Below, one piece after another: positions 24,909 to 27,110 of a stretch of 35,948 nt of DNA. The stretch lies in assembly GCA_001507955.1 (NCBI GenBank), contig LGEU01000001.1, forward strand, positions 1-35,948. Direction: 5' to 3'. Source of the stretch: Methanobacteriaceae archaeon 41_258. GTDB lineage: Archaea > Methanobacteriota > Methanobacteria > Methanobacteriales > DSM-23052. Made by a program: the position numbers and the translations under genes. The stretch's first letter is position 1; each line of letters begins with the position of its first letter. Under the pieces are notes generated by a model. The model did no database searches, was not told the DNA's origin, and was given only the letters and a program-made list of their open reading frames with translations.

Positions 24909-25151
24909 ATGTGTATAGCAGCGCCTGCTCAAATAATAGAGATTGACGAGGAAGAGAATAGTGCAGTGGTTGATTTTGGTGGTGTGAGGCAGAAGGTTAA
25001 GCTCGATCTTGTGGAGGATGTTAGAGAAGGTAAATATGTCCTTGTACATTCAGGTTATGCTATTGAGGTGTTGTCTGATCGGGCTGCGAGGGAGTCTTTG
25101 GAGGCGTGGGATGAACTGTTAAAGGTTCTTGATGAGGAGAATCCAAGTTAG
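24909..25151 (+). CDS. hypC: Hydrogenase maturation chaperone HypC
   Basis: Small chaperone that with HypD assembles and delivers the Fe(CN)2CO group to [NiFe]-hydrogenase large subunits. The 80-residue product starts with the essential MCIAAPAQI (Cys2), followed by the OB-like VDFGGVRQKVKLDLV and the YVLVHSGYAIEVL strand, then a C-terminal helix: the full HypC/HupF pattern. ATG 24909 follows GAGAGGGAT. No other hyp or hydrogenase genes are in the window, so it is a detached maturation gene. Its stop overlaps the trpY stop on the other strand by four bases. Confidence 0.96.
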   Translation: MCIAAPAQIIEIDEEENSAVVDFGGVRQKVKLDLVEDVREGKYVLVHSGYAIEVLSDRAARESLEAWDELLKVLDEENPS

Positions 25152-25651
25152 TATATTGAAACTCTTTTCACTCCTTCTATTTCTAGGAATTTTTTAAGAA
25201 GATTGCCTGGGATAGGCTTTTCTGTTATAATTGTCAGTTTTGGATTTTCTTCAAGTTCTGGGTCGCTTGCATGTGCTTGTCTTATACTTATACCCTTGGA
25301 GGCTATTAGGGTTGCGGCCTTTGCTAATATACCTGGGCTGTTAGCGTTTGCTTCTATTTCAACCACTCCAAATTCGAGGTTTTTTGCCGTTTCTTTGAGG
25401 AGGGCTCCTGCGGGTATTATGTTTTCGAAAATTTCCTTTAGGTTGTTGTCTTGGAGTATGACTTGTGTAGTTGCTCTTATTGTTCTTCTGTCAACGTTAG
25501 CGGCCCTTGCAAGGGCCATGTCACTTATCTCCACGTCTCCACAGTATATTTTCCCATCGGGGTTTACCCTGAATCCGAGTTCTACGATTTTTTTCGCCAC
25601 GTTTATTCTTGCAGGGTATTTTTGGAATTTGTGTTTTATTTTTTCCCACAT
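25148..25651 (-). CDS. trpY: TrpY, transcription regulator of the trp operon
   Basis: A 167-residue DNA-binding regulator. The N-terminal ~75 residues form a helix-turn-helix (VAKKIVELGFRV... DMALARAANVDRRTIRATT), and a C-terminal ACT domain (about 90-167; GVVEIEANANSPGILAKAATLIA) is suited to bind an amino acid. In Methanothermobacter thermautotrophicus TrpY is divergent from trpE and binds TRP boxes (TGTACA) to repress itself and, with tryptophan, the operon. The same arrangement is present here, including TGTACA at 25664-25669. ATG 25651, with GGTGG five bases upstream, is preferred over TTG 25663. The identity rests on domain order and position and is strong. Confidence 0.93.
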   Translation of the reverse strand: MWEKIKHKFQKYPARINVAKKIVELGFRVNPDGKIYCGDVEISDMALARAANVDRRTIRATTQVILQDNNLKEIFENIIPAGALLKETAKNLEFGVVEIEANANSPGILAKAATLIASKGISIRQAHASDPELEENPKLTIITEKPIPGNLLKKFLEIEGVKRVSIY

Positions 25652-25663
25652 CAAAACCACCAA

Positions 25664-25726
25664 TGTACATTATTATACAGGTAAGATTTAAATAGTACTT
25701 TAAAGTATAAGTATTTTGTGCACAAA
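25664..25726. promoter_or_regulatory. trpY/trpE shared promoter with TRP-box-like palindromes
   Basis: The divergent spacer holds TGTACA at 25664-25669 (the published TRP-box core), a palindromic TATA-like ATTTAAAT at 25686-25693, a 12-base palindrome TACTTTAAAGTA at 25696-25707, and a 12-base palindrome TTTGTGCACAAA at 25715-25726. Starting ~25 bases from the central TATA, trpE transcription would begin inside the TGTGCACA palindrome and trpY transcription at the TGTACA. Each start would therefore lie under an operator. The operators are seen; occupancy by TrpY is inferred from known regulation in the genus. Confidence 0.75.
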
Positions 25727-25754
25727 CAACAAGGAGTTATAACCATGCAAGGAA

Positions 25755-27110
25755 GTGAATATTTTTGGAAAAAGCCCCAAAACATTCAAACTCGATTTAG
25801 AGGATCCATTTAAATTATTCAAACAATTATACCATAGTAATGATTCTGTTTTTCTACTAGAATCAATGGAAAGCGACACAGGACTCTCAAGATATTCGTT
25901 CATAGGCTTCGACCCCATCTTAACCATCAGGGCAAAATCAAACATTCTAGAAATAGAAACAAAAGACAACAAAGAAAAAATACGCGCCAAAAATCCATTT
26001 AACATCATAAGAAATTTCTTAAAAGAAAAAAACAATTTCAAAGGCTTCGCAGGAGGACTAGTAGGATACATCTCATATGAATCCGCAAGATTCCTCGATA
26101 AAATCCCCATAAAAAAACCCGATTTTCCAGACTTCGAATTCGGCCTATTTCTTGATGGAATAAAATTCAACCACCTCACAGGCAAATGCACCTACATAAC
26201 ACTCTCAGAAAATCGACTAGACCACATAAAAGAAGCCTCCAAAGATAATCCTCAAGACCAGAATAAACTTTCCTTCAAAGACAAAGGAAGAATCTTCTCC
26301 AAAGACCAGTACGAAGAAATGGTCTTAAGGACAAAGGAGCGAATAAACAAAGGAGAAATATTCCAAGCAGTAATATCAAACGCCCATAATTACAAGATAA
26401 AGGGCGATAAACTCCACTTCTACGAAGCCTTGAGAAAAGTTAACCCTTCACCGTACATGTACCATCTCAAATTAGGTGAAAGGGAAATCATAGGATCCAG
26501 CCCAGAAATGCTCGTAAGAGTTGAAAACAGGGCAGTTGAAACGTTTCCAATCGCGGGGACGCGTCCAAGAGGATCCAATGAAAAAGAAGACAAAAAGATC
26601 GCAGCTGAGCTCTTATCAGACGAGAAAGAGTTAGCAGAACACCTAATGCTAGTAGATCTTGCAAGAAACGACATAGGAAAAATCAGCAAGTACGGTTCAG
26701 TCAAAGTCAAAGAATACATGAGTATAAAAAAATTCTCACACGTACAACACATCCTATCCCATGTAAAAGGAGAACTCAGAAAGGATAAAACCGCAATCGA
26801 TGCATTATCATCAGTATTCCCAGCGGGGACGGTTACGGGAGCCCCTAAAATACGTGCAATGGAGGTCATAGATGAAATAGAAACCACGCCAAGAGGGGCA
26901 TACGCAGGAGCCCTAGGCTATTTTTCATTAAACGGAAATGCCGATTTTGCAATAACAATAAGATCCCTCATAACCCAAGGAACCCAAGGAAAAATACAAG
27001 CCGGCGCGGGCATAGTATACGATTCAATACCGGAAAAAGAGTTCCTAGAATGTGAAAACAAGGCAAAAGCACTACTATATTCACTCAAAATGGCGGGTGA
27101 AGAAAGATGA
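25755..27110 (+). CDS. trpE: Anthranilate synthase component I
   Basis: Converts chorismate and ammonia (from TrpG) to anthranilate and pyruvate. The 451 residues include the feedback-inhibition segment FLLESMESD near residue 33, RYSFIGFDP, and the catalytic chorismate-binding half: RTKERINKGEIFQAVIS, SSPEMLVRV, PIAGTRPRG, LVDLARNDIGKI, VTGAPKIRAME and AGAGIVYDS. The only in-frame start is GTG 25755, whose AAGGA site is only a base or two away; a better-spaced ATG (25745) lies in another frame. First gene of the trp operon; its TGA overlaps trpG in ATGA. Confidence 0.96.
   Translation: MNIFGKSPKTFKLDLEDPFKLFKQLYHSNDSVFLLESMESDTGLSRYSFIGFDPILTIRAKSNILEIETKDNKEKIRAKNPFNIIRNFLKEKNNFKGFAGGLVGYISYESARFLDKIPIKKPDFPDFEFGLFLDGIKFNHLTGKCTYITLSENRLDHIKEASKDNPQDQNKLSFKDKGRIFSKDQYEEMVLRTKERINKGEIFQAVISNAHNYKIKGDKLHFYEALRKVNPSPYMYHLKLGEREIIGSSPEMLVRVENRAVETFPIAGTRPRGSNEKEDKKIAAELLSDEKELAEHLMLVDLARNDIGKISKYGSVKVKEYMSIKKFSHVQHILSHVKGELRKDKTAIDALSSVFPAGTVTGAPKIRAMEVIDEIETTPRGAYAGALGYFSLNGNADFAITIRSLITQGTQGKIQAGAGIVYDSIPEKEFLECENKAKALLYSLKMAGEER

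Follow-up and report, generated by a model that had tools for sequence, protein, structure and literature searches.

The most unusual feature of the trpY-trpE region in the window (the whole stretch of DNA analysed, 35,948 nucleotides) is a short leader ORF with its own Shine-Dalgarno sequence, which overlaps the start of trpE out of frame, carries a single Trp codon and recurs with the same layout in 37 genomes of seven genera. We believe, at rather better than an even chance, that ribosomes start at the leader ATG, stall at UGG when Trp-tRNA is scarce and enter trpE by a +1 slip of tRNAPhe. An earlier note on this DNA had singled out the 63 bases between the two genes as a symmetric control region built of palindromes around one TATA element. 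The leader ATG (25745) begins 19 bases beyond that interval and 58 bases downstream of the TATA box's first base, and the overlapping ORF is more unusual than the palindromes. The features are as follows.

25148..25651, minus strand: trpY; probable start ATG 25651, chosen by inspection (the listed ORF opens at TTG 25663)
25664..25679, no strand: box 1, TGTACATTATTATACA, dyad TGTA-N8-TACA; likely TrpY operator near the trpY start site; in 31/37 spacers
25687..25694, plus strand: putative TATA box of trpE, TTTAAATA
25696..25707, no strand: box 2, TACTTTAAAGTA, dyad TAC-N6-GTA; candidate second operator; arms in 31/37 spacers
25715..25726, no strand: palindrome TTTGTGCACAAA; not conserved, probably chance
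25731..25736, plus strand: Shine-Dalgarno AAGGAG of the leader ORF; match of 4-8 nt to AGGAGGTGATC in 37/37
25745..25813, plus strand: leader ORF, MQGSEYFWKKPQNIQTRFRGSI and stop; overlaps trpE out of frame
25755..27110, plus strand: trpE reading frame from GTG; anthranilate synthase component I; TIGR01820, 539.5 bits (cut-off 512.05)
25763..25768, plus strand: proposed +1 shift site UUU_UGG; leader Phe codon 7 and Trp codon 8, GGA being next in the trpE frame

The trpE gene heads the right-hand operon and lies on the strand opposite to trpY, with 91 nt between the ORFs as listed. The earlier reading of the left gene as a TrpY-family gene divergent from trpE is borne out by the profile searches, in which its product scored 224.5 bits against NF053754 (TrpY_fam; cut-off 180), the profile starting at residue 6 of the TTG-started ORF, and trpE likewise exceeded the cut-off of TIGR01820. 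Beyond trpY there is a hypC/hupF-like hydrogenase maturation gene (24909-25151) whose stop overlaps the trpY 3' end. According to part of a published account of Methanothermobacter-type control (PMC6737238), M. thermautotrophicus also has a TrpY-family gene divergent from trpEGCFBAD, with overlapping promoters under TRP-box control, and TrpY alone is the known regulator of the trp operon.

The trpE GTG lies ten bases after the leader ATG, in the +1 frame, and has no Shine-Dalgarno sequence of its own. Among the 37 genomes, the match before the leader ATG was of only 4 nt in nine, and before the GTG (slightly narrower stretch searched, n=37) there was no match in eight, one of 3 nt in 27 and one of 4 nt in two. 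No other start codon was found in the open trpE frame upstream of the GTG in 32 of the 37. All 37 thus hold two overlapping ORFs in the +1 relation, the upstream one led by a Shine-Dalgarno sequence and showing the leader-frame periodicity described below. The leader peptide reads M-x-x-S-E-[CY]-F-W in most relatives; its single Trp codon is at position 8 in every case, translation being deduced from the selection, and the leaders close after 8-26 codons, the stop directly following the Trp codon in one of them (L042).

The motif ATG-N7-GTGAATRYTTTTGG matched once in each of 37 of the 150 Methanobacteriales genomes (7 of 19 genera), always at a trpE start, and its reversed control had no match in the same 150. 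The profile search returned 40 trpE genes of this lineage (E 1e-37 or lower), 37 of them with the leader. The three without it (G009, G012 and G150; loci L072, L073 and L143, the last at G150:C1:100700-101900) seemingly have no ATG, GTG or TTG in the N-terminal frame and carry a Shine-Dalgarno sequence (GGAGGTG; AGGTGAT) about 5 nt before an ATC (G150) or ATT (G009 and G012) that may be the start codon, so that odd trpE starts are not peculiar to the genes with a leader. Altogether 130 genomes had a trpE match, and 90 carry only a more distant trpE, which had an in-frame ATG near its start in all 11 loci examined (ten genomes plus the second copy of G121). This second lineage (L155-L163, from G042, G068, G015, G020, G005, G106, G039, G046 and G022) is about 500 aa long, has one Trp codon in the nine genes examined (9/9) and replaces the leader-bearing trpE in many Methanobacteriales; G121 has both. 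In G122 (C9:41909 onward; L065, L148) trpE is split into two frames (open frame 203; match from residue 194), a break due to mutation or assembly error, and the leader is intact.

In the profile search of the phylum, G150 was the only genome reached outside the order, the other archaea being covered by the motif scan alone. A slightly narrower motif matched 28 stretches of a contig collection described as 84,980 species, 16 of them TrpE and 12 not, and the 16 were all in records titled Methanobacteriaceae, Methanosphaera or, once, Euryarchaeota archaeon. This motif requires T at a place where G003 carries C; none of the 12 g1 and g19 genomes known to carry the leader motif was among its matches, and records close to the window may be absent from such a scan, so it is no census. 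The rarity of the layout was gauged by applying a crude rule to 20-kb stretches, ten from G001 and ten from G149, with one stretch per genome picked because it contains trpE. It flagged three places among 166 ORFs and two among 154, respectively, with trpE among both, and in one of the three other places the leader frame looks like the real gene. In an initial form, the rule had flagged 4/166 and 0/154, missing the trpE of G149.

Changes were counted on a trpE tree built without the first 8 trpE codons, for 37 rows that are all related. The leader ATG had none. Leader codons 2 and 3, which lie upstream of the GTG, had 3/2/12 and 3/2/8 changes at their three positions, that is, a third-position periodicity in the leader frame. 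The 14 positions from the GTG to the end of TGG (positions 11-24) together had 4 changes, whereas downstream third positions had a mean of 7.9 each. Conservation ends at the leader Trp codon, after which both sequence and length vary. TTT and TGG were unchanged in all 37, with no TTC, and of the 35 TrpE residues that are invariant within the first 150 codons, V1, N2 and F4 alone used a single codon. Only one change was silent in the leader frame (G003, TAC for TAT), and in the trpE frame it turns Ile into Thr. These counts establish the leader and the selection acting on it, and from them we infer the frameshift.

In the model that we favour, two layers of control would stand before trpE: the TrpY operator-promoter, and a translated leader sensing tryptophan by ribosomal frameshifting. 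The Shine-Dalgarno sequence would recruit ribosomes to the leader ATG and M-x-x-S-E-[CY]-F would be read. With Trp-tRNA plentiful, UGG would be read as Trp and ribosomes would terminate at the leader's own stop, so that little TrpE would be made. With Trp-tRNA scarce, the A site over UGG would be empty and the P-site tRNAPhe would move by one base, from UUU to UUU, with full re-pairing, which TTC in place of TTT would spoil. GGN, a TrpE glycine codon, would then be in the trpE frame, and the product would be a TrpE beginning M-x-x-S-E-[CY]-F-G. The sign fits, as Trp scarcity would raise TrpE. The slippery P-site codon precedes the A-site codon as TTT_TGG in 37/37, and UGG would presumably be slow when Trp is limiting. 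Passages of a review of frameshifting (PMC5009743) state that a minority of prfB genes shift at UUU_U, and give the slow A-site codon more weight in +1 than in -1 shifts. The C that follows TGG in 31 of the 37 resembles the C after the prfB stop. The shift itself, its Trp dependence, and the share and importance of the shifted product in TrpE are what we infer from sequence here.

The alternative that survives best, which we consider unlikely, is a leader that throttles without sensing. The Shine-Dalgarno sequence would feed the out-of-frame ATG, TrpE would come from rare initiation at the GTG ten bases on, the leader would merely keep TrpE low, and the overlap block would be frozen because it codes in two frames. 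Several observations that count against our model suit this one. The GTG, invariant (37/37), may itself initiate weakly; in G150, N-V is retained at the corresponding position, behind a presumed ATC start with a Shine-Dalgarno sequence of its own; and four of the eight g19 genomes (L040, L045, L047 and L049) have, after the leader ATG, a second ATG in the trpE frame, 6 nt before the GTG (ATGCATGGGAGTG), which, like an in-frame GTG located 18 nt before the trpE GTG in G001, is a possible bypass of the leader. However, the part of TrpE right behind FG differs in both residue type and length, so that a protein-level need for MN[VI]FG is not obvious, and TTC for TTT or AAC for AAT, though silent in trpE, is absent in the 37. 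Moreover, it is at the Trp codon that conservation ends, and the GTG on which this reading depends lacks a Shine-Dalgarno sequence.

The same sequence evidence would be accounted for by frameshifting at a set ratio, in which a constant, Trp-independent shift rate at UUU_UGG would hold TrpE down to a fixed degree and all the sensing would fall to TrpY, the only regulator of the operon known from the account cited above (PMC6737238). We regard this as improbable. On this reading the Trp codon in the A site (37/37) would be coincidental, though TGG is forced there by the GGN glycine codon that follows a U in the trpE frame.

Another possibility is that M-x-x-S-E-[CY]-F-W is an arrest peptide, stalling on Trp or its tRNA and gating trpE initiation or operon transcription with no frameshift. 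The residue-level constraint on codons 2-3 and the fixed distance of 8 codons from ATG to TGG would agree with it. However, a ribosome stalled at UGG would presumably cover the GTG and so block TrpE when Trp is scarce, which is the wrong sign, and known arrest peptides are usually longer than this leader peptide; we find this reading quite improbable. Finally, a functionless out-of-frame ATG and ORF kept by descent only, conceivable in so far as all 37 rows share ancestry and TrpY control might be enough for the operon, is hardly credible, since neighbouring sites are heavily changed but the ATG and the block are not, and the distance from the TATA box to the leader ATG ranges from 49 to 303 nt among the relatives.

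Returning to the tryptophan-sensing frameshift, we looked at elements that might assist it or replace it. A downstream stimulating structure was discarded, as the 60 nt after TGG had no stable structure in the mean (z -0.23; 37 sequences, single-base shuffles, a rough measure). The GTGA located 4 nt 5' of TTT is invariant and short, and there is no clear internal Shine-Dalgarno sequence at the prfB spacing. Within 25500-26300 no Rfam model matched up to E = 1, and a hairpin attenuator, a T-box or another catalogued RNA was therefore set aside; besides, the leader overlaps trpE, so that there is no gap for terminator and antiterminator hairpins of the trpL type. TrpE has no Trp in 35 of 36 full-length leader genes, but this was dropped as support because the three leaderless relatives are also Trp-free.

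As to the promoter, the four palindromes reported earlier are exact: TGTACA (25664-25669), ATTTAAAT (25686-25693), TACTTTAAAGTA (25696-25707) and TTTGTGCACAAA (25715-25726). TGTACA is itself the core of a 10-bp palindrome, AATGTACATT (25662-25671). The 94-nt spacer (25651-25744) contains six palindromes of at least 6 bp, five of at least 8 bp and two of 12 bp. When the same spacer was shuffled 2000 times with its dinucleotides preserved, the mean counts were 2.07 for palindromes of at least 6 bp and 0.59 for those of at least 8 bp. Six or more palindromes of at least 6 bp occurred in 1.2% of the 2000 shuffles, and five or more of at least 8 bp, or two of 12 bp, in none (0/2000). The palindrome density is therefore above chance, in this one sequence. 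Of the symmetric layout proposed in the earlier note, the palindromes and their density stand, but perfect symmetry is not the conserved trait.

This became apparent on comparing, by exact patterns, the 37 related trpE spacers that carry the leader. A TGTA-N8-TACA dyad lies 5' of the TATA box in 31 of them (the pattern is missing in L041-L044, L055 and L062, the last anchored on another TATA-like site), and TGTACA occurs within it in 18/37. The consensus of TrpY boxes is of the TGTACA type. The TGTACA that had been taken as the left element is present and begins box 1 of the window, but the element is better described as TGTA-N8-TACA, with TGTACA as its left half. The suggestion that TACTTTAAAGTA is a further element has gained ground, since TAC-N6-GTA arms recur directly after the TATA box, also in 31/37 spacers (missing in L052, L054, L057, L061, L062 and L069), with TACTTTAAAGTA itself in 3/37 and a perfect palindrome of any sequence in 8/37. 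Both dyads are thus conserved in relatives. The palindrome ATTTAAAT was found in 19/37 and may serve trpY too; transcription both ways from one central TATA box would be in keeping with the published TrpY system and its overlapping promoters (PMC6737238). The proposal that TGTGCACA is an operator variant at the start-site position did not hold: it was found in one of the 37 spacers, that of the window, its place being taken by GTGCATAGA, GTGTACAGA and GTGCATTATACA in the three other genomes of the genus, and TTTGTGCACAAA was rejected as an operator on these grounds. TGTACA occupied the start-site position in 2/37.

In the window's own genome, TGTA-N8-TACA-N4..12-TTTAWATA had two matches, at trpE and at a TrpB-like gene, and none for the reversed control. 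The second site (G000:C76:6038-6068; L185, also L186 and L191) precedes a gene that we take to be trpB2, the known second TrpY target; this gene has an ordinary ATG led by a Shine-Dalgarno sequence and no such leader, and its relative in G001 matched TIGR01415 with 745.7 bits. The same two sites were present in G001 and G003, and G002 had only that at trpE. The conserved dyads and the site before trpB2 therefore indicate that the 63-base region is probably, for the most part, a TrpY/trpE operator-promoter of the known kind, with the boxes as candidate operators.

Compared with the TrpY/TRP-box system of M. thermautotrophicus, as far as part of its description goes (PMC6737238), nothing essential differs in this layer: the divergent TrpY-family gene, the TGTACA-type boxes and the second site before trpB2 are shared. 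Two dyads describe the boxes here better, and conservation does not extend to the window's third palindrome. For the leader, we put it at slightly above even that trpE is a natural Trp-hungry-codon switch, in which Trp-tRNA scarcity at the single UGG would lead, by a +1 slip of tRNAPhe, to the first enzyme of Trp synthesis. The bacterial prfB shift at CUU_UGA_C, in the passages of PMC5009743 that deal with it, is alike in that the P-site tRNA makes its +1 slip onto UUU with the A-site codon still waiting, the first ORF is short and the feedback is on its own pathway. In contrast to prfB, the waiting codon here is the sense codon UGG and not a stop, the sensor would be Trp-tRNA and not a release factor, and an internal Shine-Dalgarno stimulator is not clearly present. 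The hungry-codon frameshifting seen with E. coli in the laboratory (PMC5009743) likewise occurs at a codon whose aminoacyl-tRNA is scarce, but the present shift would be an integral part of a biosynthetic gene. The relevant passage of that 2016 review states that no natural case with a starvation-specific trans-frame product was known, so the present one, if true, would be the first natural starvation-driven frameshift yielding a functional product. Such frameshifting has long been studied in the laboratory, and a leader conserved over seven genera makes a natural case directly testable; a shuttle-vector system exists for M. thermautotrophicus (part of PMC8609365). In the ketolide-induced ermC leader (passage in PMC5009743) conditional frameshifting in a leader ORF also serves as a sensor, but there it is induced by the drug and opens the mRNA structure for a separate start, whereas here the shift would enter the gene. 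For archaea, the passages concerned of a 2021 review (PMC8211752) list, besides predictions, one -1 case in a cellular gene, and +1 only in a haloarchaeal virus; ours, if true, would be the first +1 frameshift of a regulatory kind in a cellular gene of an archaeon. No description of such a leader appeared in the titles and abstract openings of the open literature among the matches listed, and an earlier notice in the original trp literature is possible. In trpL-type attenuation of bacterial trp operons, a translated short leader with Trp codons acts together with hairpins. The archaeal leader is similar in being short, translated, with a Trp codon, before trpE and beside a repressor; it differs in having one Trp codon and no hairpins, in overlapping the gene and in that control would be translational. 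If the model is true, the leader would be an archaeal equivalent of the trp attenuator working without hairpins, and would add a translational layer to an archaeal trp control so far described via TrpY alone.
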